64,000 nucleotides of DNA, taken from the NCBI GenBank assembly GCA_012031925.1, contig JAAUSE010000001.1:1-64000 (forward strand). The letters are read 5' to 3'. Positions 9,551 through 62,248 of the stretch are shown here, piece after piece (positions within the stretch are counted from its first letter, which is position 1; each line of letters begins with the position of its first letter). Both the position numbers and the translations under genes were made by a program. The notes under the pieces were generated by a model. It did not search any database, was not told the DNA's origin, and worked only from the letters and a program-made list of their open reading frames with translations. Source of the DNA: Candidatus Altimarinota bacterium. Its GTDB lineage: Bacteria > Patescibacteriota > JACMRA01.

Positions 9551-9629
9551 CTGTGTAAATAGTTAAAATATTGAAGCGTTTTGTCAATTTTGTTTTGACA
9601 ATTCTTAGACTAAATAGTAGAAAAACTTT
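9551..9629. promoter_or_regulatory. divergent back-to-back promoters
   Basis: On the minus strand TTGACA (9582-9587), 17 bp and AACTAT lead to ATG 9550 with an 8-base gap. On the plus strand TTGACA (9595-9600), 17 bp and TAGAAA (9618-9623) lead to GTG 9630 with a 6-base gap. The two -35 boxes are 7 bp apart, and both transcripts would be leaderless or nearly so. Confidence 0.65.
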
Positions 9630-10924
9630 GTGAAAATAAAAAAAATCGCGCAATTAATCGTATTGTAGTTGGGGATGTTGGTAGCGGCAAAACTATAGTG
9701 GCTTTTTTAATTGCCCTGACTTATTTGAAGAATCTCAAAGCTGGGCAAGTGTGCATGTTGGCTCCAACGGAAGTTTTGGCTTATCAACATTATGTTAATT
9801 TGTTGCAATTTTGTAATAATTCAAATAAAAAAACTCAACAAGGATTTCCAATAGTGGTTTATCTTTCTAGTAAAAAAAACTGTATCAATGATGAAGTAAA
9901 ATTGACCAAAAAAGCTCTGGAAAAAAAACTAGATAAGCTAATGTGCGAAGATAAGAATCAAAGAATTTTTTGGATTGGAACTCATTCACTCTTGTTTAAT
10001 GAATTAGTGAAGCCTGATTTGGTTATGGTTGATGAACAACACAGATTTGGTGTGGAGCAAAGAAAAAAATTATCCCAAAAGGATCAATCAAAAACTAGTC
10101 CACATTATATAAGTTTTAGTGCAACTCCAATTCCAAGAACATTAGCATTGAGTATTTACTCTTCTTTGAAACCACATTTTTTGGAGACTCTACCGGGTAG
10201 AAAGAAAATCAACACAAGGATTAATTATTTTGAAGATTTTGAAACAAATATAATTAACCAAATACAAGCTAAAGTTAATTTGGGTCAAAAAGTTTATGTT
10301 GTTTGTCCAAGGATTGAGACAGATCAAGAAGAACCTAATGAAGAGCTTTGGTCAACTACTTTGACTGCCAGAAAACTAGGGAAAGTCTTTGGAGATAAAG
10401 TACTTGAAGTACATGGTAAAAAAGCTGAAAAAAAAGAAATTCTGGATGAATTCAAAAATTCTATGGAAAAACAAATTTTAGTAACAACTACTGTTGTTGA
10501 AGTCGGTGTAGATGTTGGCGAAGCTACTTTGATGGTAATTCTAAACAGTGAAAGATTTGGCTTGGCTGCCCTACACCAACTGCGTGGAAGGGTTGGTAGA
10601 AATGATTATAAAGACAATCAATGCATCTTAGTGACTTGGAAAAAATTCTCTAGAAGTCGAAGATTGAGATACTTGTGTGAGATTCACAGTGGGTTTGAGT
10701 TGGCTCAAAAAGATCTGGAACTTCGTGGAAGTGGAGATATGTATGGCAAAAATCAAAGTGGATATGATTCTGAGATAGAAGGTTTTATTGGACTTGGACC
10801 GGAAAAGTACCAGCAAATCGCTGAGTTGGTTGGTGGAATTGATTTTGGTAATTTAAAACAAAATGGGTTGGAAAGATTAGAGAGATTTGTAAAAAAAGAA
10901 AGTTCTAAAGTTTGGGATGAATAG
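9630..10924 (+). CDS. recG: RecG-type helicase core lacking the N-terminal wedge domain
   Basis: The protein contains all helicase motifs of RecG, which remodels stalled replication forks: GDVGSGKT (Walker A), APTEVLA, DEQHRFGV (DExH box), FSATPIPRTLAL, TTVVEVGVDV and QLRGRVGRN, followed by the RecG C-terminal region. Normal RecG has about 270 residues before Walker A, including the OB-fold wedge that grips the fork. Here only about 20 are possible. A GTG at 9630, 6 bases after a house-style promoter, plus one added A in the A8 run at 9638-9645, gives a continuous 431-residue frame. Without the repair the frame opens at TTG/ATG-like codons near 9698, inside the helicase. Either a free-standing helicase core or a 5'-truncated gene is possible. 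Confidence 0.85.
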
Positions 10925-11711: not shown

Positions 11712-14700
11712 CTACGGAACAGGATGACAATCTCCTGTATGTGGCACAATTACATCATTGTTATCAGCTACCACAGCACATAATCTATCAGCTCCAATTG
11801 GTTTGTTTGTGACTGATATAACATATGGATTGGCAGAAGTGTGAATCTTATCTCCAACATCAGCAGTCTCGGTATCCCAATAGAAGTGAACCCTGTAACC
11901 TGATGGGGTTGGTGTGAATCCATTTGCTTGGAAGAAGACTTCATAATCATTTCCAGAATTGATCAATTGGATCTGACTAATATCTAAGGTTCTAAGGACA
12001 CTACCAAGAATCAAATTAGAATTAATGGAGTAATTTCCTAGAGCCAAATCTGTGAATTGATACTTACCATCGTTAGCTGTATTGGTGTTTTTGTTGGCTG
12101 CTCCACTAAGTGTCATTTGTACCCCAACTAATGAACTATCATTATCTTCAATTGTGTTGATATTATTATCTGCACCATCTAAATCTTGGAATCCATCACC
12201 ATCTCTATCAAAGAATGTTTTACCAGTGATTGATGAGTTGTTGGTCAGTGGTGAATCAAACTGGAAGAAATTAAACAAAGCATTAACATATAGATTACCT
12301 GTTGGAAGGGAGAAGGTAACTTCATCAACTGAACCAAAGTTACTAATAGAAGGTTCGTATCTTTGAGTATTGGTGTTTTCTCTACCACTTACATTGTTGA
12401 GTTTTCTGATTGTATAAGTACCTGGTTGCAAGTATAGCTTTTCAATACTTTGGTTGGCTGTGAAGCTTAGGGTTTGGCCAGTTGGGGTGTCAATTTCAAA
12501 ACTACAACCACTAATTACAGATTCTGTGTAGTTAATATCTGGATAAAACGTTATTGTTCCATCACCATTACGATCATCAATACATCTTGCGTTAATATCA
12601 CCTGTATAAACATACTCAATATTGTTATTTATATTATTGGCATTATAGACTGCATAACCATCTTTAAGGTCATCAACATTATTACTTCCCCAAATCCAAG
12701 TTCTATTTGGTGCAGGAACAAGAGAAGTTAAGTAAGATTTACAAGCAATTGCTGAGATACACCTACTTTCAATACTTGAGAATTGAGTATTATTCCAACT
12801 GATGTTTGGAATTGGATTATTCTCAGTAATATCTTGAGCGTCAAATCTATGGAAGATATACTCTCCTGTTGGCAAATTGTTGAAAGTGTATGAACCGCTA
12901 GAATTAGTTGTGGTTGAAACAGTTCCGTTTGGCCCAGTAGCAAAGATTGTTGCGCCATCTAATGGTACTTCGTTATCAAAGGTTAAACCAGCATTTCCAT
13001 CTTCTCCATTTGGCTCAAAACTTTGGTTGAGTGTGGTTTTGTCTATGAAGATTGTACCTGTAAATGTATTATTATTAAAAGGACTTACAGGATAATCTCT
13101 ACTATAATTATCACTTTCAAGTAGGGTGATGCTAGTGTCTGGGTTAGAGAAATTAGTAACTGCTGATCCAGGTTGTAGATCCAAAACTTCTACTGTATAA
13201 TCCCCTGGCGGCAGATTACCAAAGTTTATGGTCTCTAAAGGAGTATAGCCACTTCCTGGATCAAGGTCATCACCTAACCTACTACCCAAATTAACCACAC
13301 TTCCATCACTATTAAATATAAGTCTAAAGCCAGCCCCAAAAACATCAATCTCATATTGGCTTCTTACTTGGTTATTATTACCGTCATAGAAGGCTTTTAG
13401 ATTCAATTGACTATTGTAGTTATATGTCATGTTGTAGGTTGCTGTTGAACTTCTGTTGACGTAGATTAGTGGAGATAATTGAGTATTTCCTGTATCAACT
13501 GATATATCATCATAACTTGCTGTGCATCTTTGACATGCTGTTCCAGAAGGAGTAGAGGTTCTTATTCTTGTATAGTAATAACCTTCTGCTAGATTAGTAA
13601 ATGAGAAGTCACCCAAAGAGTCAGTCGTGGTTGAGGCTACAAACCTTTCATTGGAAGGAGAAGTTGGAGTGGTTTCACCTAAGATCCTACCTCTTCCATA
13701 ATACAGATCTACAATTGCGTTTGGTATTACCACATCATTATTGAATAAGGTGATTGGATCATTAATATCTGAGAGGTCACCTTCATAAACAGCATCTCCA
13801 TCTCTGTCAATAAAGACTTTACCAGTAATTGTGGAATTAGTTGTTGGCTCGAACCCAAAAGGTATTTCGACTGCACCTTGAGATTGAAAAGCATCAGCAA
13901 TAACAACATCTTCACGCAAAAACTCATTTGGCGTTATTCCTGTATAACCTGTATCATTAACTGGACTGGTTAACTCATAATCATAGGTATCTGGAATAAT
14001 TGCTTGGAACAAATAACTAACTTGATTAGAGCTGGAGATCTCATCAATTAGATCATCTGAGGATGTTTTTTGAGCAAAAGTTCCTTGTAGTTGTCCATCA
14101 ATATTACCTAGTGGTCTGTTCTCTTCCCAATAGTCGTATACTCCATTTAGGTTTTGATCAATAAATAGATAAGCTTGAGCTTGTGGTTGGAATCTAGCTT
14201 CAATACCATAATCAGTGTAGTTTGTTCCTGGTGCATCCCCCGCTGTTCCATATATGCCTACTGGGTAGTTATTCCAGAATATGTAGTTGGAATTAAAGTC
14301 GGTTGACTGATATTCAAATCCTGCAAGTGGCACAAATGGACCAGTATCACAGATGTTAACTCTCACCCTAATTGAATTAGTGAAAGGCAGAGCAACTTGC
14401 CTGATTACGGCATATCCTCCTGGTGGAATGTTACTAAAGCTAAACTCACCACTACTATTTGTTAACGAGGTCGGAGGTGAAGCATTCCATATATTAACGT
14501 CACTACTATCTTCACCAAATGCAGGGGAACATTTTTGGAGCTCAACTGTTTGACCACTATAAACAAAATCATTATCGTAATCGTAATCATTAGTGGTATC
14601 CGTGCCTGTTAAATTATCATTACCATCAAGATCTATTTGGCTATATGAAATAAGATTGTTTTGCTCATATCCTGGTCTTCTGTTCCAAAGTCTTCCAGAC

Positions 14701-17700
14701 AAGTTTGATGTGGCTGTGTTTAGTACAAAGTTAGTGAAAGTCCTTGCTGTTAAGTTTTCTTGAGTACCAAGGAAGATAGTTAGAGTTTGATTAGTGGTTA
14801 CTTGGTCATATAATCTTGAATCAAAAATTGATGTATAACTTAAGCCACCATTACCTATATTATTATCAACTAAATCAGATCGGAACTTGACTGTGTAATC
14901 TCTTGGTGGAAGCTCTTCAATACATCCGTTAGCTCCAAGAATTAAGTAACCTTGAGCGTTTCCATTACTAGCAACTTGAGTACCATTGAAGGATTGATAT
15001 TCTAATTGATAGTACACACCAGGGCTAGGAGCTAAAGTCAAATCAATATCGTTATCAGAAGTGGTGAGAATATTATTATCATCACCATCTGCATCAAACA
15101 CACCGTCATTGTTTTTGTCTACAAAGTGATCAATACAAATTCTAGCAGTGTATTGAACTGAGAAGTCAGTTCCAGAGATTTTTTCATCATTGGTAATAAA
15201 TATATCAGTAGTTTCTTGAGCACCTGACAGTATTGGAGAACTTGGAACTGTTGGAAGTACTGCTTTGGTACCAAGAGCGTTTGGAAGAACTACTCTGTAA
15301 GTTCCTGGGGTTAGTCCAGTGAAGGCGTACCTACCTTCATTATCTGTGAGTATTGTTGAGAATAAAGTAAAGTTAGCTCCGCCAGAATCTTTATAAAGTC
15401 TGATTTCTTGATCAGTTACTGGAACATCATTATCAAATACTGTGATTTCGGCTGTATCTTGACCAAAAGCTTCGTAATTACCATCTTCATCACGATCAAC
15501 ATAGACAAACCCTCTAATGGCTCCAAGTACAAACTCTGGGTTGTTTGTATATCCAAAATTGTTGTTGATGAAACTGGATACTCCGTTAATTGTATTATCG
15601 ATGAAGTCACCACCTGTGCTTGATGAGAATCCAGGTGTAATATTGCTAACAACAACCCTGTAGTCTTCTGGGAATAGACCTGAGAAACAAGTTGCTCCAC
15701 TAGTTGATGATGTGAGTGTTCTAACTGGAGTTAGTAGATCGGATTGTAAGAAAAGCTCAACTGTGTATCCACTTAAACTGGTCTCGGAATTATCAAATAT
15801 AGTATCAAAATCTTCATCATTAAATATATTATTACAGACTGTACCATTACCGGTGTATCCAAATACCAAGTCGGTTGTACTTGAGGCACTTACATTGAAG
15901 GTTTGAGAACCACCAGTAGTACTTGATGACCCTGCTGGAGTATCTTGTAAAACTGTATATTGACCAGGCGCAATTGGAGAGAAACAGAATTGGTTTGCTC
16001 CACCAGACTCGTTTGGAGTAGGAATAACTTGGATATCTGTACTTGAACCAGCTTGTCTTATTCTAGTATTAATCCCTGCTAGAAGAGTTTCACCTGTATT
16101 GAAGGCACCGTTAGTATTTGCGTCAATGAAGGTGTGAGTTACACAAACAGTAGCATTACCATTATAACCAAATTCTGGTGTGTATTTTTGGGCAAATCCA
16201 AGGTTGGTAATAGTAACAGGATTAGTTGTGGAGGTAATTGTGTAGTTAGAAAGAACTTCAGCCTCTACTTGATACTCATCACCCACAACCAAACTAGCTG
16301 AAAAACAATCTTCACCACCACTAGAAATAATTGATTCTATGAAAGTACCTACTTCATCTCTAAGAGTTAGAGTTGCTCCAGATAGTTGAGGCTCGGAGTT
16401 GTTTACTCCATTACTATTATCATCTCGATAAGCAACTGGGCAGATTTGAGGAGCTCCATTGTATCCAAATTGAGTGTTGATATTTCCTTGGCCAGTTACA
16501 TTGACAACTTTATCAATTCCACCAGTTGTTGAAGTGGTATTAGCAGGAGGTGTTTGCACTACCCTATATGAACCATCTAATAGGCCAGTGAAACAAGTTG
16601 TACCGTTAGTTGAAAGTGAGCTAACTTCTGTACCGTTACCATTTCTAAGGGTTGTGGTTAAGCCGTTAATATTTATATCTTCAGGAAGATTTTGAGTTCC
16701 ATTGATATTTCTATCTTCATAGGTTGGGTACGGACAGATTTGAGCAGAACCTTGGTAACCAAACCTAACAGTTTCGTTAATTCCAAATTGAGTAGCTACT
16801 GGGAATAAGGCTGTGGTTCCTGCACCTCCTGGTTGACTTCCAGTTGAAACATTACCACTAATATTAGAACTTGATGTCAAAATTCCACCATTTGGAGTTG
16901 TTTGTTCAACTCTATAATTATTTGGAATAACGTTGGTGAAACAAGTTGTACCATTGGTACTAAGTGTTTGAACAGTTTGACTATCACTTACTCTTACCAA
17001 GTTCGTAGTAAGTCCAGTAAGATTAGAGTCCCCTGTATTTTGAACACCATTACCATTGAAGTCTTGGAAGGTAGGATATGGGCAAACTGTAGTGGCTGAA
17101 TAAAATCCAAAAGCTTCACTTACACTAGCTCCATTATTTAGAGTTATGACTCTTGGCTCTACTGTTGTTGAGACTACATTAAGAGAGTTTTTATTGATTT
17201 CAATTGTGTAGTTACCACCATTGACACTAGAACTAAGAAGATTAGGGAAATTATTAACTCCATTAATTACTAAGTTAGAAGTAATAGTATTACCTGAAGC
17301 GTCCTTGAGTGTGGCTAATATTCCTGTAACTGCTGGCTCGGAGTCATTTGTTGCATTTTGGTTATCATCTCTAAAGGCAGTTGGGGTAATTGTACTGTCT
17401 CCTTGATAAGAATAGATTCGTGTTGTGTTATTTATTGTAGCTCCATCATTTGGAAGAGCGTTTGCGTCTTGAGTTGCTGTGTTACCATTAGTTAGGACAC
17501 CTCCAGTTGGGGTTGTTTGTACAACTTGATAAGTGATACTTGGTGTGATATCAGCTGGGGTGAAACAAGTTTGTCCTGCTCCGGTTGAACTAATTGTTTG
17601 AACTGTAATACTACCTGGGTTTTGAACAAGATTAGTTGAAATACCGTTGATTTGTGGCTCATTACTATCTTGAACACCATCACCATCGTAATCAGCAAAG

Positions 17701-18556
17701 GTATCAAAACAAACTGTAGTTACTGCTTGATCCACATCGAACAAATGATCAGGAGTTGTAAGTGGCCCACTATCGCCGTCAATTGTGAAGATTACAATAT
17801 TATTTACACCAACTGAATCTGGAATAACTGTACTGTTGTTTCCAATAGTTTCGTTGATCGCACAAACTCCATTGATAACATCCTGGTTAGTTATAGTGAT
17901 AGGTGATGAGAATGAAGGTCCTGAGAAAGTTGCATCACAAATTCCTGAGCCATTAAGTAATTGATTGGTAGCTGAGTCAATTAATCCTGTAACTTGTGCA
18001 GAGGTTGGGTAACCTACAAAAGACTGCTCATTATATGTTGGATTGATTGTTGTTTTTAGAGTTACTGCTGTATGTGTTGGTTGACCAGGGTTACCTGAAT
18101 CTTCTTTAGCAAAACCTGATGGAATAATTTTGAATCCAAACTGGCGATTAGTTGCTTGACCAAAGTTTTGAGTAATTGAGTATTGGATATTGTTTCCAGA
18201 GACAGTACCTCCAGTAGTTGATTCGGAGAAGTTTGGAATAGTTTGCTCAACAACGTAACTACCAGGAACAACATTAGTGAAACAAGGGCTTCCACCTGTA
18301 CCATCTGTTGTAATAGTAGCAATTGGGGTTATTAAGTTAGAAGATAAATACAGTCTTACATTTTGTCCGCTTAACAGATAATCAGTTCCTCCATAAGTTC
18401 CATTCTCGTTAACATCAATAAATGTTGGGTTTGGGCAGATATTATTATTACCATTATATCCAAAGGTTCTGTTTTCTGTTGCCCCTACTCCAAGATTGAT
18501 GTTTGCATATTCTGGAGTTGCTCCATCATTTGGTATAGTATTCGTTCCACCAGTTG
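11712..18556 (-). CDS. giant surface protein, C-terminal third (SdrD B-like repeats)
   Basis: This is the C-terminal part of the giant gene. The frame is open and stop-free from about 18556 down to the TAA at 11712. No ATG, GTG or TTG occurs in frame between 18556 and 17746, so the automatic start at 17744 is not a real start but the first start-like codon inside a continuing frame. It contains many SdrD B-like/Cna-B repeats with refrains such as YRDDNSNGVNNSEPQLSG and GQYTVLQDTPAGSSSTTGG, alternating with calcium-binding DxDxDG loops (DRDGDGFQDLDGADNN). The C-terminus has no membrane helix or sorting motif. SdrD B repeats are rigid calcium-stabilised stalks of adhesins, so an extended extracellular stalk is inferred. 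Confidence 0.8.
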
Positions 18557-21500
18557 GGGTGTTTGTTCTAGTCTATAAATACCATCAAATAAATCAGTGA
18601 AACAATTTGGTCCTGTTGATGAAGTTGTAAGAGAACCTACTAATTGTGAAAGACTATCATATAACCTAGTTGATACCCCTGCTAGAAGTGGCTCACTACC
18701 ATTTTGGGCTGTATTTCCATCATCATCCCTAAAGGTTGGATTAGCACAGATTTGAGCAGTTGGCGGGAACCTAATTGGGAAAGTTGAATTGGCAGTTTCA
18801 AAAGTATATTCAGTGTTGTAATCAGAGTTAAAAAGTGATACTACGGTTTTGATATAGGCTGTACCTTGTGCAGTAAGATCATTACTAGGAATTGTGGCTA
18901 TACACCTACCGTTATTTATGGTTGAACCATATTCTGTTGCTGGGTTGCTATCAATTTGCATTACAATCTTACAGACTGTTCCATTAGGAATATTAGTTGT
19001 ATCATCAGCTTTGTCGATATCTGGAGATGTAATAGTTGCTGGAAGTCCAATTAACAAAGGATTTTGAGTTGAAGTGTTTGCTCCTGGAATTAGATTACCA
19101 GATAAGAATATATCATAGTTTCTACCAAAATTAGTCGCAGGTGTGGTCAAAGTTCCATTGTCTCCAGCTGTAGTAACTGTGAATGAATAAGTCCCATCAA
19201 CTATTGGTAGTTCTGTGTTTCCATTAAGAGTTACTGAACAGACCCCTGCTATAACCGTAATATTTGGTTTGCTCAAAGCAAAGCTGTTTGGTCCAGTTAT
19301 ACTAAAGTTACAAGTGGTTGAACCAAGTGGGTCAAGATTAGCCGAGTCTTGAAGACCATTAACTGCAAGAGTTATATTATTATCAATGTAACTTGGTGAT
19401 GGATTTGTTGTAATTGTTGTATACACTGGTCTTGTAAGGTTATTAACATCCTCAAGAGCTTTGTGAGAAGGGAACCCAACTACTGTAATAGTTGACTCTG
19501 CTGATAAGAAATCAAAATCTGTTCCATTGATGTTAAGGGTTACTTCTGTATTGGCAGTTAGGTTGCCATCAATGATACTCGTGTAAGGTATGGTGACTAC
19601 ACATTGACCATTAATATTTACTGTATTTGTGTATTCACTATGAAAAACACTATCATAGTAAAGAATGATTTTACATGGGGTACCTTGATCAACATTGGTA
19701 GTAGTATTGAATTTTTTGAGGACTGGTGAGTAAAAGACTGGATTGGTTTGGGTAGTATAATTGACTGGGTCAGGAATTGTGGTTGTAGCTCCAGGAAGAA
19801 TTCCTCCACTAAGATTGATATCAAATTCTCTAGAAAAAGGCGATGCTGGGGTGGTCAAATTACCACTATCACCTTCGACTGTTAAGGTAACGTTGTAGGA
19901 TCCAGACACACTTGGTAATTGGAATTGAGTGAAATTATAACTACATTGACCTCCAATAATATTAGCTGTTACAAATTGCTGGTTGTATGAGTTTGGCCCT
20001 GTGACAGTAAAGGTACAAGGAATTCCATTGAGAGCTTGACCGTTAGCTGAATCAATCAAACCATTTGCAGTAATACTGACTGTGGAAACTCCGATTATAT
20101 TGGTATTAGGATTGATTGTTAATGTTGCATATGTTGGCTGACCAGCGTTACCTGAATCTTCCTCGGCTTTGTTAGAAGCTGCAGCATATACAGTAAATGG
20201 TAAAGTTGAATTTGTCTCCGTAGTTGCCCCAACTACGGTTATTGAAGCGTTGTAACTGCCAGCAATAGTTGGAGCAGTGAATGAGCTTGGTAGAATACAA
20301 ACACCATTACTTACTGTACCACTAGTTATAGTTTGATTATACCCTCCTGGGCCAGTGATGGTTACTTGACAAGTTAAGTTGTTGTTAAGGTTACCACCAT
20401 TTTGGTTAAGTAGGTTTTTAATACGTGCATCAAATGTAGCACTGATGCTAACAGGGCTAGGAATAGAGTCAAAGATTGCACTTGTTAAGTTTGTTTGAGG
20501 AATTGAACTATCAAAATAAGTTCCACTTTGACCTGCACCCGAAATACCTGAGCCTCCAGCAAAACTATTTACAAACGTTGGACACCTAGCATCTGTTATA
20601 TAATCTACTGAAATCCTACCACCTGCTCCTCCTCCACCTGAGTTACCATTACCACCATTACTATTTAGACTACCACAACCTGCTAAGGTGTTGGTAACTA
20701 TCCAGATAGAACCACCTGAACCTCCACCACCATCATAACTACTATTTCCTCCATTGTCCCCATTAGCACTAACTGATCCGTTGATAGTTACTGTGCCTGT
20801 GGCTGTGATTTTGGTAGCACCAGCACCATTACCTCCTGATAAAGCACCACTACATTGTCCAGTAGCTCCTGAGCCTCCTGAACCAAGCTGGGTTGGTTGG
20901 CTAGCTGATCCATAAACAGCTCCACCTGTACTTGGCATATCTCCAGTACCTCCAAGACCACCATGACCAGCTCCAGCACCATCTCTTCCTCCAGAATAGA
21001 CTTGAGCCAAACCTCCACCTGGGCCAAAACCTGCTTGAGAAGTAAGACAACTATTATTAGCTGCACCACCATCAAAACCAACACTATTAAGGTTGATAGA
21101 GGCAGAAGTGTTAAGATTAAGATTCCCAACTGTGAAGTTTAGGACATTACTTTGACTAGTTGAGTTATCTGCGTGAGTTAGTGTAGATCCTGAGTTGAGG
21201 GTTAGTTCATTAAAAGAGTGAGTGTTTAGAGTACCGAGTCTAAGAGTTGCTGCATTATTAAGATTAGTATTTTGGGAAATAGTTATGATAGAATTAGAAT
21301 GGAAGACATCTGCATTAGTCACTGTAAGATTATCAAGGGTGATAGTTGCTTCTGTTGTTGTATCTAAGATAGTGTCATCAAAGACAGTTGCAACGTTACC
21401 TAAGATGAAGAGATTACCATTAGTGAGACTTGTTGGTTTTTCATAAATAGTACCAGGGCCACCGATTTGAACAGCAGCTTCAAAGGCTCCCCCTGCATAA

Positions 21501-24067
21501 GCTGTTGTGGTTCCAGAGAAAGATTTGGTTGTGTAGTATAGAGCTATTCTACCTCCACTACCACTACCAGCGCTGTCATAAGTTCCTCCACCATTAGCAG
21601 TGATAGAGCCTGTTCCAGCAATAGTTGGAGCATCGATCCAGATAGAACCACCTGAACCTCCACCACCTGAGTAAGAATTATTGGTAGTAAGATCATTTCC
21701 ATTTGCGTTGATACTACCATTAATTGATACTGTACCTGTTGCGACAATCTTGATAGCTCCTCCACCATCAGCTCCTGAGGTATTGTTAGTACAATTTCCT
21801 GCGGCTGCTGATCCTCCTGAACCAAGCTGAGATGGTTGACGATAGGAACCATAACCTGCTCCACCAGCTGCACCATTATCTCCATTACCTCCTTCACCAC
21901 CATAAGCACCACCTGCTCCATCACTAGCGGTAGCACTTGAGCCTGTGGCTCCTCCTGGGCCAAAGCCTGCTACTCCTGTACAACTACTATTGGCTGTTCC
22001 TCCGTTGAAACCTCGGCCTTGAGCAAAAATTCTTCCTCCAGTGTTAACAGTAACATTATTAGTGTTTAATATAAGACTATCCGTTGGGGTGTTTCCGGAA
22101 TTATTTCTGTCTTGATACAAATCTCCTCCAGAATTGATATTAAGTGTTGTGATATTGTGAGTACCAAGAGTTCCAATGGTTAGATCAGCTGCGTTGTTGA
22201 TAGACAAAGTACTGGCTATGTTAAGAGGGTTTTCTTTGTAATACACATCCGCATTCTCAACTGTAAGATTATCAAGGGTGATTACTCCTTCAGTTGTGTT
22301 GTCTAATACTGTATCATCGAATCCAGTAGTTACATTTCCAATTATGGAGAGATTACCTTCACTTAAGCTTGCTGGTTTTTCGTAGATTGTTCCTGCCCCT
22401 CCTTCTTGGACTGTTGTTTCACTCAATTGTAGACCTGCGTAAGCTGTAGTTGCTCCTGAATATGTTTTGGTAGTATAGTATAGTGCAATTCTTCCTCCTG
22501 ATCCTGAACCTGCAGAGTCATGTGTTCCTCCACCGTTGGATGTAATTGTACCGCTACCTGCCAGTGTTCCTGCATCTATCCAGATTGAACCACCAGAGCC
22601 TCCTCCTCCAGTATAGGAATTATTAACTGCATCATTACCATTGGCATTGATTGTGCCGTTTACTGTGACTGTGCCTGTTGAAACAATTTTGATTGCTCCA
22701 CCACCGTCACCACCAGAAGAGTTTCCGCTACAACCACCACGTGCAGCTGAACCTCCTGAACCTAGATCTGTTGGTTGTCTGTATGAGCCATAACTTGCTC
22801 CACCAAAGGATCCTGTATCTCCATCTCCACCTTCTCCTCCATAAGCTCCACCTGCTCCATCAGCGTAGTTGCCTATTGGTGCAATAGCACCACCTGGTCC
22901 AAAGCCTGGTGATGGAACACAACCATTGGCAATACCTCCGTTGAAGCCTCGTCCTTGGGCGTTAAATGTTCCTTGGATGTCTGAATTATTTGAATAAATC
23001 TCAACTTTTTCTCCATCTGTAGTGTTTACTGTAGTTCCTGGTGAGATTGTGAAAGTATCGATATTACAGTATATTCCTGCTAGATTAGTTCCATCTGCTG
23101 GATTGAAGTTTGCTCCTCCAAGGTCTGTATCGCAGTGAAAATTCAATAGTGAGGTAGTGTTGGAATCCAATGATGAGCCTATATTATTAACTGCGTTGAT
23201 TTTGAAATAATAGTCTTGTCCTACTGGTAGGCTTAAGGTAGCTGAGGTGTTGGTGCTTACTCCATCATTGTATATTTGTGGATTGGTAAAATTACTAGAA
23301 TTAGAATAAGTGATAATATAATCAGTAAGAGGAGATCCACCGTTGTAGGAAGGTGCTGTCCAGCTTAGATCAACAAAACCTTCATTATCAACAGCACTTA
23401 GATCAGATGGAGCATCAGGAACACTGCTAAATCCATAGTCATAAAGGGCTGGGCCAGTTGCAGTATCACTGTTACTAAGTATAACTTGCACATCTTTACC
23501 AGTACCAGATCCAGCCGGTGTTCTAGCTGTAATTGTGGTAGTGTTGATAACATTTACGCTGGTAGCTTCATTTCCATCTATTGTGACAGTTGTTGGGGTA
23601 GCTTCATTACCAAGACTGGTTGAGGGAATATTAGTGGTATTGTAAAGTTTGTATTTGTTGTTTAGATAACTCTCAATAATTTGTTTTTGGGGAGAATTAA
23701 GCTGCGTGTTGAATAATAATAGTTCAGCTACCTCACCATCAGATCTTTCCAAAGAACAAGTTGCATTACCGTAACCACTAAGACAAATACCGTTTGGCCC
23801 AGCAACTCCCGCACTGTTACTAGCTAACTGAACACCGTTACGAGCTACTGTACTTATTGATCCATTGCTTGATCCAGTATACTGATCCCAGATTGTATCG
23901 GGAGCTTGATTGGGCTGATGTACCCAACCTTCAAAATAGAACCTATCTTCAAAAGCTGCATGATACCCAAATAGCCAGTTATTATTAATAGATGAGATTA
24001 ACCTACCATGAGTACCTCCATTATATCTGGATACTGAGAACATGGTGAAGTTGTTACCAACATTCAA
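18485..24067 (-). CDS. giant surface protein, middle third (Gly-rich repeats and Ig-like domains)
   Basis: This is the middle section of the same giant gene. It starts within a concanavalin-like (LamG-type) domain that continues from the upstream piece, and ends in SdrD B-like sequence that continues in the downstream piece. In order it has the LamG remainder, a fibronectin type III domain (PDAPSDLSAVDNEGFVDLSW), three long glycine-rich modules, and then about four Ig-like repeats with Cys pairs (ANGLIDSANGQALNGIPCTF). The last 25 residues are out of frame. Adding one base near 18556-18560 restores QTTPTGG-type sequence identical in style to the next repeats and joins the two frames. There is no real start codon context at 24067. 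Confidence 0.8.
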   Translation of the reverse strand: MNVGNNFTMFSVSRYNGGTHGRLISSINNNWLFGYHAAFEDRFYFEGWVHQPNQAPDTIWDQYTGSSNGSISTVARNGVQLASNSAGVAGPNGICLSGYGNATCSLERSDGEVAELLLFNTQLNSPQKQIIESYLNNKYKLYNTTNIPSTSLGNEATPTTVTIDGNEATSVNVINTTTITARTPAGSGTGKDVQVILSNSDTATGPALYDYGFSSVPDAPSDLSAVDNEGFVDLSWTAPSYNGGSPLTDYIITYSNSSNFTNPQIYNDGVSTNTSATLSLPVGQDYYFKINAVNNIGSSLDSNTTSLLNFHCDTDLGGANFNPADGTNLAGIYCNIDTFTISPGTTVNTTDGEKVEIYSNNSDIQGTFNAQGRGFNGGIANGCVPSPGFGPGGAIAPIGNYADGAGGAYGGEGGDGDTGSFGGASYGSYRQPTDLGSGGSAARGGCSGNSSGGDGGGAIKIVSTGTVTVNGTINANGNDAVNNSYTGGGGSGGSIWIDAGTLAGSGTITSNGGGTHDSAGSGSGGRIALYYTTKTYSGATTAYAGLQLSETTVQEGGAGTIYEKPASLSEGNLSIIGNVTTGFDDTVLDNTTEGVITLDNLTVENADVYYKENPLNIASTLSINNAADLTIGTLGTHNITTLNINSGGDLYQDRNNSGNTPTDSLILNTNNVTVNTGGRIFAQGRGFNGGTANSSCTGVAGFGPGGATGSSATASDGAGGAYGGEGGNGDNGAAGGAGYGSYRQPSQLGSGGSAAAGNCTNNTSGADGGGAIKIVATGTVSINGSINANGNDLTTNNSYSGGGGSGGSIWIDAPTIAGTGSITANGGGTYDSAGSGSGGRIALYYTTKSFSGTTTAYAGGAFEAAVQIGGPGTIYEKPTSLTNGNLFILGNVATVFDDTILDTTTEATITLDNLTVTNADVFHSNSIITISQNTNLNNAATLRLGTLNTHSFNELTLNSGSTLTHADNSTSQSNVLNFTVGNLNLNTSASINLNSVGFDGGAANNSCLTSQAGFGPGGGLAQVYSGGRDGAGAGHGGLGGTGDMPSTGGAVYGSASQPTQLGSGGSGATGQCSGALSGGNGAGATKITATGTVTINGSVSANGDNGGNSSYDGGGGSGGSIWIVTNTLAGCGSLNSNGGNGNSGGGGAGGRISVDYITDARCPTFVNSFAGGSGISGAGQSGTYFDSSIPQTNLTSAIFDSIPSPVSISATFDARIKNLLNQNGGNLNNNLTCQVTITGPGGYNQTITSGTVSNGVCILPSSFTAPTIAGSYNASITVVGATTETNSTLPFTVYAAASNKAEEDSGNAGQPTYATLTINPNTNIIGVSTVSITANGLIDSANGQALNGIPCTFTVTGPNSYNQQFVTANIIGGQCSYNFTQFQLPSVSGSYNVTLTVEGDSGNLTTPASPFSREFDINLSGGILPGATTTIPDPVNYTTQTNPVFYSPVLKKFNTTTNVDQGTPCKIILYYDSVFHSEYTNTVNINGQCVVTIPYTSIIDGNLTANTEVTLNINGTDFDFLSAESTITVVGFPSHKALEDVNNLTRPVYTTITTNPSPSYIDNNITLAVNGLQDSANLDPLGSTTCNFSITGPNSFALSKPNITVIAGVCSVTLNGNTELPIVDGTYSFTVTTAGDNGTLTTPATNFGRNYDIFLSGNLIPGANTSTQNPLLIGLPATITSPDIDKADDTTNIPNGTVCKIVMQIDSNPATEYGSTINNGRCIATIPSNDLTAQGTAYIKTVVSLFNSDYNTEYTFETANSTFPIRFPPTAQICANPTFRDDDGNTAQNGSEPLLAGVSTRLYDSLSQLVGSLTTSSTGPNCFTDLFDGIYRLEQTPQLVERILYQMMEQLQNMQTSILE
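20600..22930 (-). repeat. three tandem glycine-rich modules in the giant gene
   Basis: Three copies, each about 900 bases apart, encode a module opening with GFGPGG and containing YGSYRQP or YGSASQP, LGSGGSA, GGGAIKI (GAGATKI in the third), NANGND and GGGGSGGSIWID. The first two copies are close at the DNA level, the third is more divergent. Recent duplication followed by drift is inferred. The Gly-rich sheets resemble extracellular PGRS-like or ice-binding-like modules, but no family is claimed. Confidence 0.75.
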
Positions 24068-24102
24068 GCTGTTATTGAGATATCTTGAAGTGTTAAGTGT
24101 AA

Positions 24103-27100
24103 CTACTGGTTTGCCATCAAGCTCGTTGGTTTGAAGGATAGCACCACTGCTGATACGGATGTCAGATTATTAGCTGTGCCATCTCTATCTAGCCAAGTGG
24201 TAACCTCGGTATTATCAACAGAAGTAGAGGCAACATTACTAGAGAACCACATTCTAATACTCGGATCTGTTAGGACTGAGGCAAAACTAAAGTTATTGAT
24301 ATTTGAGTTGCTTGTTAGTGATGGATGACCATAAGTTAGTAGAAAAGTTGAAGTACCAGTTGGCAAAGAAGATTTGGTGAACCATATAGTAGTACTAGGA
24401 GTGTTACAACCACCATCAACGTAATAATTGAGATCTGTTGTGTTATCAACATCTTTGATTCTAATGTCTGAACAATTGGAGTTCATTTTGCCTGCACTAA
24501 TTAAAGATTGTGTGTTAACTACAATATTGCCTTCATAGTTGGTTATAGCTGAACCAGTTGAGTTGTTAATTGTTATTTTTCTTAGATAACTTCCATCATC
24601 TGCAAAATTACTACCTGTGATGGTAACTGTTTGACCACCTCCATCAGGGCCTTGATCTGGATCAATTGATGTGATTTGAGGAAGAGCGTAAGTGAACCCA
24701 CCTGCGAGAGTATCACTACTTCCATCAACGGAATTAATTGTGACATCGACTACCCCATTAGCATGAGCTGGGACGGTGGCGGTGATTGTATTTGGGTTAA
24801 CAATATTAACATTGGTTGCTTCAACTCCATCAAACAGAATATCTGTACCATTGGTGTTTTCTGTAGAACTAAGAGTTGTAGTTGGGATTGTGCCTGTGTT
24901 GTAGAGTCTATATTTGGTGTTAAGATAACCTTCCATTATTTGTCTGTCTGTGGTATTGAGATTAGTATCAAATAATAAGACTTCTGCTATGTCACCGTTG
25001 AGTCGGCTTTGGGTTCCGGAATTTTCAGCACCTATATATGTTCCAACTGCAGATGGTGTAAATCCTGATATAGTTGAAGCTGAATTGTAAGAACCGTTAA
25101 CTCCAGTAAAGACATTCAATCCATTCCTGATAAAGCTAGAAAGATTATAGTTTGTTGAAGTAACTGTATTAGTAATCGTTGGTGTGAAACCAGTATGAAA
25201 ATATGTGTTTTGAGTTGTTGAATCGTAGCGATATGTGAACCCTTCAGAATTAGAAGTTGGTCTTGTTGAGATGATTGCATCTGTGTCTGTAGCAACAGCT
25301 TTACTTACGGCAAACACTGAACCATTTGCTCCTGATGTGTTGAGAAGTGTATTATTAATTCTCAAAGTATCATTCACCCCATCAAATCTTAATACTGGCT
25401 TAGTGTTGACTTGGTTAGTTGATAAAATAGGCTGATTAGCAGCTGTACTTTGAGTTGCATTGTTGTTGTTTCCAGATCTATCATTGAGTTGAGAAATTTT
25501 GGACGTGGAGTTTTCACAAAAACCATTACAAAATTGTATATTATCAACACCTTCATTGATATCATAGATAGAGACATCAAGTATTAGGTTATTTGTAGGT
25601 GGATTGATGGTGCTTGTGTAAAAAATTACATTGTTCTTTTTGTATAGAATTTGTCCGTTGGATAGTTCAACAACAAATTCATCACCAGCAGAATAAGTTC
25701 CAAAAGTCCCACGAAATACACCCAATTCATAAACCTGAAGCGAAGAACCAGAACTAAGATATATAGCATAATCTATATCTGTGTAATTATTATCTGTATT
25801 ACCATTAGCTAGTCCAAACATTGTCACTGGGTTGCTATTTCGAGCAACTGCAGAGACATAACCATTACTTAATGTTGTTGAGTTAGTTGAGGTCAAACCA
25901 GCATTAGTCCAAGAATCGTCAGCAGCTGTTTTGGTAATATTACCTCCGTCAATACTAATTCCACTAACATTGCTAAATGTTGGAGTTACTGCGTCATTAC
26001 TACTAGTTATATTGTTTGTATTGTTGTTAGCTGATAACCATAGTTTGTTATTAGCACTTGATAACACTGAAGCAAAACTGAAATTAGCAATGTTGGAATT
26101 ACTTGACAAATCACTATCACCATAAGTTAATTTTAGGGTCGAAGAGCCTGTTGGTAAGGAAGCTTTTTTGAACCATACAATAGTGCTAGGGGTATTACAA
26201 CCACCATCAATATAATAATTGAGATCAGTTGTACCATCAACGTCTTTGACTCTAATATCTGAACAATCGGAGTTCATTTTGTTAGCACTAATTAGAGCTT
26301 TGGTATCAAGAGTAATATTTCCCTCGTAATCTGTTATTGGGGATCCTGTGGTGTTATTAACTGTAATATCTTTGTTGTACGAGGCAACATTAGAAAAATT
26401 GTTACCAGTGATTGTCACATCGTAGCCTCCAAGTCTTGAGCCACTAGTAGGATTAACAGAAACAATATCAGCTCCAGCGTAGGTAAAACCGTTTGTTAGA
26501 GTGTTACTTTGATTATCTGGATTGGTTACTGTAACATCAACACTACCAAGAGAACCAGCTGGGACGGTGGCGGTGATTGTATTAGAATCGATAAAGTTAA
26601 CGTTGGTTGCTTCTACTCCATCAAATTCTACTACTCCATTAATTTGGTTAATAGAGTAAGTTGGGTTGTTGGTGGATATATCGTATTTTGTATCAAGGTA
26701 TTGCTCTAGTGTGGAAACGTCTGTAGATGATAGTGCAGCATTGAATATCATCAACTCTGACATACTACCAGTTAGTGGTGGATTGAAAGATCTGTCTCTG
26801 TTGAATAGATTAGAGCTTACATTGGCTGTTGTGACCATTGAGAACTGGACTGGTTGGCCTCTGATTTTGCCAAAAGTGTTTGGGGTAGGAACTTGAGTTC
26901 TGTTGACTTTGAAAGTACTATTTTGGACGGCACTAGCAGCAAAAGTTGGATTGACATATACACTCCCATCAGCGTGAAAATCATAATTACTAGTATGTCC
27001 AAGAAGGAAAGTTCCGTTTGATGGAGTGGTTGCCTCTTCCCAAACCATCAAAAAGGTTCTAATATCTGTTAATCCTGTAGTGTAAGCATATCCATCACTC

Positions 27101-30100
27101 CCATCAAAATCCAAAGTTGCCCTTCCGTTCATACCAGTTGCGTCAAATTTGGCACCAGTTTGTCCATTAAACGTATCCACAACAAAATGATTATTGTTTC
27201 CTGATCGATCATTCCACTGAGTTACTATACCATCTTGAGTTGTATTATTTGGTCCATCGTTGGCTTTGACCCAAAGTCTTTTGGAAGAAAAATTTAATGG
27301 AGCATCAAAACTAAAGTTACTTCTGTTACTTGTGGTTGTCTCATTTGACCCACTAGCTGTTAGATATATTGTGTTGTTGCCACTAGTTAGTTGAGGTAAT
27401 TGGTACCATATATAAGTTGTTGGGGTGTTACACCCTGATTCAATATAATAATTGAGATCTGTTGTGCCATCCGTGTTTTTGATTCTAATATCTCCACAAT
27501 TGTTTTGTACAAATCCGTCATTTATCATTGATTGAGTATCCAGAACTAGCAAACCCTCATAGTTATTAATTGTGCTTCCTGTATTATCTATATCGATTTT
27601 ATAACTGGACGCATTAGTTGAAAAATAATCACCACTAATAGTTACTTCATACCCTCCAAGAATGGATCCAGAGTTTGGAGTAATAGAATTAATAACTGGG
27701 CCAGAGTACGTATAACCATTATTCAATGTGTCACTTCCTCCACCAGGTATGCTGATTCCTACATTGACTGCTCCAGTAGCTCCACTAGCTGGGACGGTGG
27801 CTGTGATTGTGGTAGAGTTGACAACCACAACATTGGTTGCAGGGGTTGAATCAAAAGTGATTGTTGGAGAACCCACAAAATTGTTACCTGTGATAGTCAC
27901 TTGATTACCACCAAGGGTACTTCCAATATTTGGACTAACAGAAACAATATCAGCACCAGCATAGGTATAAGCACCTGTTAGAGTGTCACTACCTCCACCT
28001 ACTATGTCTATACTTACATCAACTACTCCGACTGAATGAGCTGGGACGGTGGCAGTGATTGTGGTAGAGTTGACAACCACAACATTGGTTGCTGGTGTTG
28101 AACCAAAAGTGATTGTTGGAGAACCCACAAAATTGTTACCTGTGATAGTCACTTGATTACCACCAAGTATTGAGCCTGAATTTGGGTTGATAGAATCCAA
28201 AGAAGCTGTATCATATGTGTACCCATTACTTAGGGTATTATTTTGAGAATCTGGATTGGTTATGATAACATCTTTGGCACCAGCAGTACCTGAAGGTGTA
28301 TCAAAGGTTATTGAAAGCGGTGAGTTTTGAGTAGTGTTAACTACACTAGCTCCTCCAATAGTAATAGACGGGTTTACTTCAGAACCTACTGTGGTGGTTG
28401 GAACTGAAGAAGTATTGTATAATCTATATTTGTTATTGATATAGTTATTTAGGATTTGTTTGTTGGTAGTACTAAGATTAGTATTGAATATTAAGACTTC
28501 AGAAATATCCCCGCCAAAATTGTTAGTAGTTTCTCCAATATTAGCACCAACTACAATTCTTTGTGGATTGATGTTTGGAGTGGAAGTGGGGTTTTTAGTA
28601 GCTCCCAAAAGACTATTTTTGTATAGATCTAGTGAGGTGTTAGTTGGTTGATAAATTGCATCGAACTGACCCCATATATTCGTGTTATCTCCTGCAATTC
28701 CAATATCATTTAGACAGTTCATCCCAGTTACTACATTACCATTTGTTTGAAAATAAAATAAAGGCGTGTCTCCAGAACATCCGTTTCCCCAAGCGAGTGG
28801 AACTCGATTATCAGTACTATCAGCAGCTTTTCTTGAGACAATGGTCATGGAATAAGCACTGTTGCCAGAAGGTAATCCTGTAGGAGTTGTTTTGACTAAT
28901 CTGTCATTGGTTAGATCAAATCTGATTGCCGGTAAACTACTAAGTTCATTGGTTTGAATAGTTGGCTGGTTAGCTCCAGTACCTTGGACAACTGTATTAT
29001 TATTACCAGATCTATCAGTCCAGGAAGATATAGCTGTATTGTCAAGAGAAGAAGAGGCTACGTTAGCTGATAACCATAGTTTGTTATTGGTGCTACTAAG
29101 TAAACTTCCAAAGCTAAAATTATTAATGTTAGAGTTGTTAGTAAGTGATGGTTTTCCGTATGTTAGATGGATTGTGGTATCACCTTTGACTAACTGATCC
29201 AAACCAAACCAAACTACAGTACTTGTTGTGTTACATCCTCCATCAATATAGTAATCAAGGTTTTGACCACTTGTCGTTTTTACACGAAGGTCAGAACAAT
29301 CACTATTCATTTTGGAAGCTCCAATTAACGCTGCTGTATCAATGACTATACTACCTTCATAGTCAAAAATATCATTATTTGTTGAGTTAGTAATTGTTAT
29401 AGGTCTTATGTTTTTGCTCGAATTATTCAAATTTTTTCCAGATATACTTACTTGGTTACCCCCTAGTATAGACCCTGTATTTGGTGAAATAGAATCAATA
29501 GTTGGAGATAGAGTCACAGAGTCAATATTGGATAACAGACTCCCGCCGCCGCTATTGACTGCTTGAACACGAAAACTAAAACTTGGGCCATCAATTAGAT
29601 TAGTAACTGTTGTACCTGTAGAACTTGACACTCCATCATTAAACATTCTGACATCATTAATAAAACCATCATTGGAATACAATACAATGTAATCTGTAAT
29701 CGCTGAAGGAGAGCTTGGAGCTGACCAAGTCAGAGTTGCTTGATTATTTCCTGTAGTAGCATCCAAGTTAGCAACTGGATCAGGAAGGATGACACCCAAA
29801 GTAGAGACTGATGAGTTACTGGTTCCAAGAGTATAGTACCCATCTTGAAGATTACTATTGGATAGATCAAAACTAACTTGAGTACCAATTAAGTTTGGTG
29901 TCAAAGCAGCATCAGCAAAACTACCAGTAGTTCCAGAGCGGTATAGTAATTTGTAATTAGTTCCATTTGATGGTGGAGTAATATTAGAATATTTGGATAG
30001 ATCAAAAGTTAGTTTGGCATCGACACCATCAGTTGAGGTTTTGTCAACACCCCATATTCTGTTCCATCTTTGCGAAACCCCTACTGGAAGATCAGTTGTT

Positions 30101-31599
30101 GCTGTGTTAGTTGTTTGGTTATTATGTCCAACAAGAACATATTCACCATTTGCTAATGAGGTGCTATTTTCTTGGATTTTTAGAGCACTAATATCTGAAG
30201 AAATAGTTTCTGTTCCATCTATCTCTTTTCCAATACCTTTGACATCACTACCTGCACCAACTTCTAGTGAATATAGGTCATTTGAGATTGGTTGGTTGAA
30301 TTTGGATGATAAATAGTTATGAATTAGTTTTTGTCTAGTAGAGTTGAGACCACTGTCAAAAATTATTACTTCACCAATATCTCCAATTAGATCTGCTGAG
30401 CCAAAAACACCCAAAGAAAAATTACCAGTTGGATTATTTAACCCAAGGCTGTTTGTAAGAACAGAAGAACCATCAATATAAAAATTGTTATTTCCGCCAG
30501 ATCTAATAGCACTCCAGATTTCTAAATTGGTAGTGTTAGCTCCTGCCGTATTAAAATCTACTCCACCATGAAGAAAAGAACGACTACCGGAACCAAATGT
30601 GCCCATTCCAAAACCGTTACTTGCACTAGTACCATTATAAAAAATTGTTCCAGCATTGGTTCTTTGGTTGACTGCAAAGGCTGAATATGATCCAGTCACT
30701 GGAATAACTGAGGGTTTGGTTAATTGATCACCAGTAGCAAACCTAACTACTGATTGCCCATTGATTTGATTGCTTTGGAATACTGGCTGATTGGCGGTAT
30801 TTGCTTCACTAATGGTGTGATTGTTCCCACTTTTATCAACCCAATTAGAGATATTAGAACCATCAACAGTCTGACCAGTTCCATCATTAGCGTCGAACCA
30901 TGCTGTTGGCGAGATCGAACTAAGAATATTTTGGTTGGGATTAGTTAAGGCAATATCATCATCAATGATTGTATATGTGAAACTAGTGTTTGTTCCAAGG
31001 TTAGTTCCACTTGATGGGTTACTCAAAGTAAGACTGATGGTTTCTGAAGATTCAAGAACTGAATCATTAGTTACTTTGAGAGGAATTTCTTGAGTAGTTA
31101 TCCCAGCTGGGAAAGTTATAGTACCATTAGCCAAAGTATAGTCAGTTCCAGAACCGGTGGCAGTTCCTGCGCCTACAGTATAATCAACTGTTACCATTTC
31201 AGTATCAGCTGTATCAAGAACTGTGCTGATTCCTGGTTGAGTAATTGACTCAGGACCGCTCAATGCTGTAAGGTTGAATTGGACTGTACTACCTGCAGCC
31301 TTGGACTCATTTACTGGACGATTAGTTGTGTAGAGAGCCGCGACCGCAGTAAAAAATAATATGGATAGTAATGAAAGGATGGAAAGTTGCTGAAAATTCT
31401 TCTTTAGCTTTCTTTTTAGGTTGGAATGATGAACTTTATTTCTCAAAAAAGAAGGGGTGACGATATCTAAACTCGCTTTTTTTGAAATTTTTCCAAAATA
31501 TTTTTGCAATTTTTGTTTGAGTCCTCTCATTTTGTTTTTGTCTTTTGTAAGCCTTTTATGGCTTGTTTGTAACCTTTTGAGATATTTTGTTTTTGTCAC
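24103..31599 (-). CDS. giant surface protein, N-terminal part with membrane signal (Calx-beta, LamG, FN3, TIG, DUF2341)
   Basis: GTG 31599 begins a Lys/Arg-rich 70-residue head followed by a hydrophobic segment (ILSLLSILFFTAVAALY), a late signal peptide or anchor. Then come a Calx-beta domain (about 110-205), LamG-like domains (WFDANDGTGQTVDGSNISNW type), an FN3 domain (VANLDATTGNNQATLTWSAP), and repeated blocks of TIG/IPT (SINPNSGSILGGNQVTITG), DUF2341 (MNSDCSDIRVKDVDG...YYIDGGCNTPST) and LamG. A TATACT box lies close upstream. The last 20 residues are out of frame. One added base near 24150 gives SGAILQTNELDGKPVV and continues into the next piece. All three pieces together give about 6,629 residues, presumably a cell-surface adhesin or sheath. 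Confidence 0.83.
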   Translation of the reverse strand: MTKTKYLKRLQTSHKRLTKDKNKMRGLKQKLQKYFGKISKKASLDIVTPSFLRNKVHHSNLKRKLKKNFQQLSILSLLSILFFTAVAALYTTNRPVNESKAAGSTVQFNLTALSGPESITQPGISTVLDTADTEMVTVDYTVGAGTATGSGTDYTLANGTITFPAGITTQEIPLKVTNDSVLESSETISLTLSNPSSGTNLGTNTSFTYTIIDDDIALTNPNQNILSSISPTAWFDANDGTGQTVDGSNISNWVDKSGNNHTISEANTANQPVFQSNQINGQSVVRFATGDQLTKPSVIPVTGSYSAFAVNQRTNAGTIFYNGTSASNGFGMGTFGSGSRSFLHGGVDFNTAGANTTNLEIWSAIRSGGNNNFYIDGSSVLTNSLGLNNPTGNFSLGVFGSADLIGDIGEVIIFDSGLNSTRQKLIHNYLSSKFNQPISNDLYSLEVGAGSDVKGIGKEIDGTETISSDISALKIQENSTSLANGEYVLVGHNNQTTNTATTDLPVGVSQRWNRIWGVDKTSTDGVDAKLTFDLSKYSNITPPSNGTNYKLLYRSGTTGSFADAALTPNLIGTQVSFDLSNSNLQDGYYTLGTSNSSVSTLGVILPDPVANLDATTGNNQATLTWSAPSSPSAITDYIVLYSNDGFINDVRMFNDGVSSSTGTTVTNLIDGPSFSFRVQAVNSGGGSLLSNIDSVTLSPTIDSISPNTGSILGGNQVSISGKNLNNSSKNIRPITITNSTNNDIFDYEGSIVIDTAALIGASKMNSDCSDLRVKTTSGQNLDYYIDGGCNTTSTVVWFGLDQLVKGDTTIHLTYGKPSLTNNSNINNFSFGSLLSSTNNKLWLSANVASSSLDNTAISSWTDRSGNNNTVVQGTGANQPTIQTNELSSLPAIRFDLTNDRLVKTTPTGLPSGNSAYSMTIVSRKAADSTDNRVPLAWGNGCSGDTPLFYFQTNGNVVTGMNCLNDIGIAGDNTNIWGQFDAIYQPTNTSLDLYKNSLLGATKNPTSTPNINPQRIVVGANIGETTNNFGGDISEVLIFNTNLSTTNKQILNNYINNKYRLYNTSSVPTTTVGSEVNPSITIGGASVVNTTQNSPLSITFDTPSGTAGAKDVIITNPDSQNNTLSNGYTYDTASLDSINPNSGSILGGNQVTITGNNFVGSPTITFGSTPATNVVVVNSTTITATVPAHSVGVVDVSIDIVGGGSDTLTGAYTYAGADIVSVSPNIGSTLGGNQVTITGNNFVGSPTITFDSTPATNVVVVNSTTITATVPASGATGAVNVGISIPGGGSDTLNNGYTYSGPVINSITPNSGSILGGYEVTISGDYFSTNASSYKIDIDNTGSTINNYEGLLVLDTQSMINDGFVQNNCGDIRIKNTDGTTDLNYYIESGCNTPTTYIWYQLPQLTSGNNTIYLTASGSNETTTSNRSNFSFDAPLNFSSKRLWVKANDGPNNTTQDGIVTQWNDRSGNNNHFVVDTFNGQTGAKFDATGMNGRATLDFDGSDGYAYTTGLTDIRTFLMVWEEATTPSNGTFLLGHTSNYDFHADGSVYVNPTFAASAVQNSTFKVNRTQVPTPNTFGKIRGQPVQFSMVTTANVSSNLFNRDRSFNPPLTGSMSELMIFNAALSSTDVSTLEQYLDTKYDISTNNPTYSINQINGVVEFDGVEATNVNFIDSNTITATVPAGSLGSVDVTVTNPDNQSNTLTNGFTYAGADIVSVNPTSGSRLGGYDVTITGNNFSNVASYNKDITVNNTTGSPITDYEGNITLDTKALISANKMNSDCSDIRVKDVDGTTDLNYYIDGGCNTPSTIVWFKKASLPTGSSTLKLTYGDSDLSSNSNIANFSFASVLSSANNKLWLSANNNTNNITSSNDAVTPTFSNVSGISIDGGNITKTAADDSWTNAGLTSTNSTTLSNGYVSAVARNSNPVTMFGLANGNTDNNYTDIDYAIYLSSGSSLQVYELGVFRGTFGTYSAGDEFVVELSNGQILYKKNNVIFYTSTINPPTNNLILDVSIYDINEGVDNIQFCNGFCENSTSKISQLNDRSGNNNNATQSTAANQPILSTNQVNTKPVLRFDGVNDTLRINNTLLNTSGANGSVFAVSKAVATDTDAIISTRPTSNSEGFTYRYDSTTQNTYFHTGFTPTITNTVTSTNYNLSSFIRNGLNVFTGVNGSYNSASTISGFTPSAVGTYIGAENSGTQSRLNGDIAEVLLFDTNLNTTDRQIMEGYLNTKYRLYNTGTIPTTTLSSTENTNGTDILFDGVEATNVNIVNPNTITATVPAHANGVVDVTINSVDGSSDTLAGGFTYALPQITSIDPDQGPDGGGQTVTITGSNFADDGSYLRKITINNSTGSAITNYEGNIVVNTQSLISAGKMNSNCSDIRIKDVDNTTDLNYYVDGGCNTPSTTIWFTKSSLPTGTSTFLLTYGHPSLTSNSNINNFSFASVLTDPSIRMWFSSNVASTSVDNTEVTTWLDRDGTANNLTSVSAVVLSFKPTSLMANQ
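24300..29500 (-). repeat. array of TIG + DUF2341 + LamG repeat blocks
   Basis: At least five DUF2341 copies and at least six TIG copies repeat with near-identical DNA. For example GCTGGGACGGTGGC recurs near 24767, 26558, 27789 and 28041, and the DUF2341 stretch encoding YYIDGGCNTPST recurs near 24410, 26200 and 27430. Such high internal identity is prone to recombination and to assembly collapse. Confidence 0.75.
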
Positions 31600-61235: not shown

Positions 61236-61757
61236 TTATTGAAAATCTTTATAAATTTGTGAAGCTTTTGGTCCAGAACTGCCTTGGTATTTGCCATTAT
61301 ATAGCTTAATGTCTCCATATGGTTTCCAAAAAGTTACTTGTGCAATTTTTTGGCCAACATATATTTTACAGGGTAGAGTTGCATAAAGCTGAAAGGTTAT
61401 GTTTCCTCTAGATCCTATGTCAATCAAATCAGCAGTAACATGTACAAACAAACCAAGTCTAGCAATCCCTGACTTAGCATGAATTAGAGGTACAAAATAA
61501 TTACTACCAACAACTTCTCTTGAAGATGCTAGATAAAAATCACCAGCATCTAGTTTCAAAAACTTACCATCATTTACAACCAACGCTTCATAGGAATTTT
61601 CTCTTTTAGGATCTATTGTTTTTTCTTTATATTTGATAAAATGGTTTCCTAGTGTTAAATCATATGAGTTGGTGCTTAAATTATTTTCATTAAATGGCAC
61701 TATTGAAATTTTATTTGATTCAACTTCTTTTTTTATTTGGTTTCCTGTTAAGATCAT
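61236..61757 (-). CDS. dCTP deaminase-fold protein with Gln at the catalytic Glu position
   Basis: The dUTPase/Dcd trimer fold is recognisable in 173 residues: MILTGNQIKKEV, NSYDLTLGN (Dcd start) and AKSGIARLGLFVHVTADLIDIGSRGNITFQL. In Dcd the motif is RSSLARLGL...DPGFxGxITLEL, where Glu activates water for deamination. Here that position is Gln (ITFQL), and the leading Arg is Lys-Ser. Deaminase activity is therefore doubtful, and nucleotide binding may persist. Overlaps the preceding paralogue by four bases (ATGA). Confidence 0.75.
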   Translation of the reverse strand: MILTGNQIKKEVESNKISIVPFNENNLSTNSYDLTLGNHFIKYKEKTIDPKRENSYEALVVNDGKFLKLDAGDFYLASSREVVGSNYFVPLIHAKSGIARLGLFVHVTADLIDIGSRGNITFQLYATLPCKIYVGQKIAQVTFWKPYGDIKLYNGKYQGSSGPKASQIYKDFQ

Positions 61758-62245: not shown

Positions 62246-62248
62246 ATT

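Follow-up and report, generated by a model that had tools for sequence, protein, structure and literature searches.

The window, meaning the whole stretch of DNA analysed (64,000 nucleotides), lies at the start of an 81.7-kb contig, C35 of the source genome (G000), whose assembly comprises 1.07 Mb in 51 contigs and is about 81% complete. A frame scan of the window reveals three long stop-to-stop frames that follow one another on the minus strand (31602-24103, 24166-18485 and 18572-11712), the neighbouring frames overlapping by 64 and 88 bases. The frame offset is equal at both joins, namely one base too few, and the two deficits are confined to these overlaps, in agreement with the single missing base per join claimed in the preliminary description. 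Read through both joins from the GTG at 31599, the gene measures about 19.9 kb and encodes about 6,629 residues, the length calculated earlier being arithmetically correct for this start; an alternative start is the ATG at 31530. No further stop is encountered across about 6,600 codons. After the opening of the second frame the earliest ATG, GTG or TTG is the TTG at 24067, and after that of the third frame it is the TTG at 17744; both fall inside coding sequence. As had been noted, no usual start codon occurs in the roughly 830 bases over which the third frame is open upstream of 17744. The coordinates of all features are collected in Table 1.

Table 1. Features of the giant gene and of other loci discussed in the text (window positions unless a contig or locus is given).
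Feature	Position	Strand	Evidence or content
First frame	24103..31599	-	Signal segment, Calx-beta, FN3, TIG/DUF2341 array; homologous single frames in G003:C10 and G004:C9
Hydrophobic signal/membrane segment, after a long basic N-region	31330..31389	-	Kyte-Doolittle peak 2.24, residue 72
Calx-beta	30955..31290	-	Pfam, E 1e-15; solved Calx-beta domains, E 2e-8
FN3 domain 1	29530..29778	-	Pfam
TIG (8) and DUF2341 (4) array	24106..29502	-	Pfam; DUF2341, E 2e-36
Junction 1	24103..24166	-	Must contain the first one-base deficit; without a long homopolymer
Second frame	18485..24166	-	End of LamG-like/DUF2341 unit, FN3, Gly-rich triplet, repeat domains, first SdrD_B-like unit
FN3 domain 2	23156..23416	-	Pfam
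Gly-rich module, three copies	20567..23134	-	Model: stacked beta strands, low confidence
Junction 2	18485..18572	-	Must contain the second one-base deficit; adjoins a C run
Third frame	11712..18572	-	SdrD_B-like array and C-terminal domain
SdrD_B-like array, 10 stretches in the third frame	11760..18830 (approximate limits)	-	Pfam, E 2e-68
C-terminal domain	11715..11987	-	Common to the smaller surface proteins G000:C44 and G004:C1
Other split genes in the window			uvrB, ackA, EamA transporter, ferric-reductase-like, SPFH, VPS10/BNR-like, LTD-domain, methyltransferase
Sortase-like or LIRTGG ends in G000	L064 9489; L067 5511; L068 1677; C44 54675 (L011); window 49230-47137		
RecG-like genes	window 9614-10924; G004 L070 104-1420		
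UvrB halves, G002	C10:13294-14490 and 169512-170126 (L073, L080)		
UvrB halves, G001	C26:5674-6870 and C21:10289-11206 (L074, L081)		

At a Pfam threshold of E <= 0.01, the giant protein matches Calx-beta (one), TIG (eight stretches), DUF2341 (four), FN3 (two) and SdrD_B (ten). The domain order given in the preliminary description is thereby recovered for Calx-beta, FN3, TIG/DUF2341 and SdrD_B, and the Gly-rich triplet is present as well, whereas the LamG and Ig-like domains listed there have no Pfam match at this threshold. Further repeat domains lie between the Gly-rich copies and the SdrD_B-like array. Thr, Asn, Gly and Ser together account for 44% of the residues and Lys and Arg for 4%, as is usual in extracellular repeat proteins. 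At the N-terminus, a predicted hydrophobic segment spans about residues 71-92 of the first frame and is followed by a plausible signal-peptidase site; a similar arrangement of basic region and hydrophobic segment is found at the N-terminus of the homologue in G003, a genome of another genus in the same family, consistent with the membrane signal proposed earlier. Kyte-Doolittle analysis gives no second strongly hydrophobic segment anywhere else in the protein.

The last 90-180 residues are common to two smaller surface proteins, G000:C44 and G004:C1 (G004 representing a further genus of the family), which carry a sortase-like tail besides, while the giant is without one. Inspection of its C-terminal sequence shows no LPXTG-like motif with membrane segment and basic tail; its final residues are HTGDCHPVP, no hydrophobic segment is present there, and the homologue in G004 ends alike. 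Among the other surface proteins of the source genome, some terminate in sortase-like signals, namely LLRTGG, PRTGG or SRTG with a membrane segment behind, and others in LIRTGG alone. Structure prediction yielded a mean pLDDT of 43 for the DUF2341/LamG-like unit and a pLDDT of 56 for the Gly-rich module. Both models are too weak to inform on function. Fold matches of the latter were insignificant (best E 1.5) and carry no weight, many being beta-helix proteins, including pectate lyase, antigen 43 and ice-binding proteins. A search of solved structures by sequence with the Gly-rich and C-terminal profiles returned nothing.

The organization of the gene becomes apparent from its relatives. With the third frame as query, the search of 58 related genomes led to contig C9 of G004 (CALITC010000009.1, 'uncultured Patescibacteria group bacterium'), which is the closest informative relative. 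There, the homologue is a single frame of 6,205 codons with no stop, which spans both junctions and extends to the contig end; its N-terminus lies beyond that end, so the protein has at least 6,205 residues. All three frames match it in order and collinearly over almost the whole length, with 30-45% identity and the same C-terminus. In G003, contig C10 carries a homologous single frame of 4,001 codons that runs across junction 1 to the contig end and is matched by the first frame and part of the second. Furthermore, when the pieces on either side of a junction are joined with X and aligned to the relatives, junction 1 aligns through residues 1354-1789 of the G003 homologue (38%) and 2145-2649 of that in G004 (31%), and junction 2 through residues 3724-4111 in G004 (39%). 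To the closest relative in each case, these alignments reach 38-39% identity, with E values of 1e-65 (junction 1) and 9e-69 (junction 2).

The unbroken relatives, together with the alignments through both junctions, establish that members of the family normally have a single gene here. The comparison therefore supports the reading of the three frames as one very long putative surface-protein gene of an uncultured Patescibacterium, as the preliminary description had it. The giant protein occurs in three genera, all belonging to a small class of Patescibacteria that six genomes, from one family, represent in the comparison set. Of the 379 Patescibacteria genomes searched, only two, the source genome and G004, have its C-terminal 1,287 residues, a region special to the family.

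The giant gene is not the only one in this assembly to be interrupted. At least eight other genes in the window are broken in the same manner, each with one base too few, and the splits of these eight lie at A/T runs of four to six bases. The ackA pieces abut at profile positions 297|296, and ackA is whole in G004; uvrB is whole in both G004 and G003, and the VPS10-like gene is open in G004. On another contig rsmA is split likewise, both pieces matching one family, and four more genes on other contigs look split the same way. In total, about fifteen shifts were found in the window and in sampled contigs of the genome, several of them positioned by eye from the reading frames; all have one direction and most lie at A/T runs. 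Such a single direction is not expected from random mutation. The cause implied by the preliminary description, single-base errors, is supported by this recurrence of the deficit across the assembly. Nanopore assemblies that have not been polished typically suffer from homopolymer deletions, by which genes are fragmented (PMC9262707).

The two frame changes are thus most likely one-base deletions from sequencing or assembly, as judged from this pattern. The A/T-run density helps to explain why only two breaks occur in 20 kb: the giant gene has 2.7 runs of five or more per kb, about a quarter of the 10.5 per kb counted in the window outside it. A/T runs of nine or more are also scarce (2 observed against about 22 expected under a third-order model), in keeping with deletion errors; G004 shows this depletion more mildly, and selection can cause it too. 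As a caveat, junction 1 lies outside any homopolymer. The sequence CCGYATCA occurs at both homopolymer-free breaks (window 24158, minus strand, and L064 4791, plus strand), and was considered as a break motif; it was set aside, as two of its 4 occurrences in 189 kb are without any break and the coincidence may be due to chance. RecG was likewise dropped from the broken genes, G004 having the same short form.

Other explanations of the frame changes have to be weighed against these observations. The changes could be real mutations in a gene that is decaying or switched off, as a pseudogene or by phase variation; reduced genomes do gather indels, mostly deletions, and a C run adjoins junction 2. 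However, this run has four bases only, which is short for phase variation, while decay sits poorly with about 6,600 codons free of any other stop and with a defect shared, always in the same direction, by uvrB, ackA, rsmA and many more. This explanation is therefore considered unlikely.

Programmed -1 ribosomal frameshifting or polymerase slippage, joining the frames in the living cell, would account for the equal sign of both shifts and for the location of most other shifts in the genome at A/T runs. Nevertheless, G003 (at junction 1) and G004 (at both junctions) read straight through in one frame, and by eye no canonical slippery heptamer was seen in either junction interval. The runs involved are short (4-7) and junction 1 has none, in contrast to the long poly(A) tracts for which rescue by slippage is known. 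Such a mechanism is very improbable here, and we attach just as little credence to its genome-wide version, in which the deficits are truly in the genome, are tolerated throughout by ribosomal or polymerase slippage, and a protein of 6,600 residues results despite two shifts. Three separate neighbouring genes, finally, can be given almost no weight: each frame is long on its own and the TTG codons at 24067 and 17744 resemble starts, but coding sequence of the second and third frames extends upstream of these, the hydrophobicity scan detected no signal peptide at the start of either frame, and the relatives have a single gene. The separate promoters at 24067 or 17744 that the preliminary description had set against a single gene also found no support, since promoter-like matches inside the giant region (59) show no excess over shuffled sequence (66.5 +/- 9.4). 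A weak promoter-like site at 31645-31616 lies just upstream of the first start, with a local count within the shuffled range.

Collectively, these findings make it very probable that the locus holds one gene of about 19.9 kb for a secreted giant multidomain surface protein, with breaks that arose as deletions in sequencing or assembly and are foreign to the cell. It is almost certain that the frame changes have no biological origin. Gene callers would report one of the largest genes of the lineage as three, and, given the many false gene breaks in this assembly, an apparent loss of uvrB, ackA or other genes from it is not trustworthy.

Several further loci came to notice. In two sister genomes, G002 and G001, UvrB consists of two unlinked halves, split near residue 400, possibly through gene fission; UvrB of G005:C65 (L075) has a short insert at the point of this split. 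A phage search with uvrB gave no useful match. In two genera the RecG-like genes start immediately ahead of the Walker A motif and have no N-terminal wedge domain. Beyond the window, its contig carries an unbroken 2,754-codon frame (G000:C35 68247-76511; L012 5247-13511) that has a membrane segment at its N-terminus and matches nothing in Pfam. Two tandem overlapping genes at window positions 61236-62248, dCTP-deaminase-like as named by eye, have similar N-termini.

With regard to function, the domains point most likely to an adhesive surface fibre, and the earlier reading as an attachment fibre or sheath is plausible. The N-terminal signal would send the protein out through the Sec route, and the beta-sandwich modules would form a long fibre. 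Binding would be the task of the TIG/DUF2341/lectin-like and Gly-rich part, while the SdrD_B-like array and the conserved C-terminal domain would act as a stalk or attachment end. The likeliest use would be contact with a host cell or a surface. Taking into account that a sortase tail is missing, retention at the cell could be achieved by other means, possibly by an uncleaved N-terminal segment or by non-covalent binding of the C-terminal domain.

Among known systems, SdrD and other Sdr/MSCRAMM proteins of staphylococci likewise have SdrD_B-like repeats forming a stalk, and ten such stretches are found here. In contrast to these sortase-anchored proteins, the giant has no C-terminal LPXTG-type anchor, is much longer and bears other binding modules. 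Very large, repetitive surface proteins are also described from other bacterial lineages, among them giant extracellular proteins in Apilactobacillus kunkeei (PMC12863079) and, in Mobiluncus mulieris, an adhesin of 7,651 residues (PMC10619420); the likeness is one of size and repetitiveness.

The closest counterparts are the giant FhaB/DUF2341 proteins of Patescibacteria. A survey of this phylum counted 149 proteins longer than 4,000 residues among 2.1 million; FhaB and/or DUF2341 occurred in 82 of these 149, and a role in adhesion or host contact was suggested for the giants (PMC11809585). DUF2341 occurs in 90 of the 379 Patescibacteria genomes searched here, in open frames of up to 10,041, 8,175 and 7,010 codons. 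The preliminary description was right that the gene is large for a reduced genome; for the phylum, as these frames and the survey show, it is not unusual. What distinguishes the protein from the described giants is its C-terminal region of restricted occurrence. It shares with them phylum, size class, DUF2341 and the role presumed for it in adhesion or host contact: once the two breaks are taken into account, one gene encodes more than 4,000 residues, with four DUF2341 stretches and, as secretion signal, the predicted hydrophobic segment. Striking in size as it is, the protein is by DUF2341 and length an ordinary member of the giant surface proteins already described in Patescibacteria, and it brings a well-supported example to organisms in which the molecules of host contact are little known.
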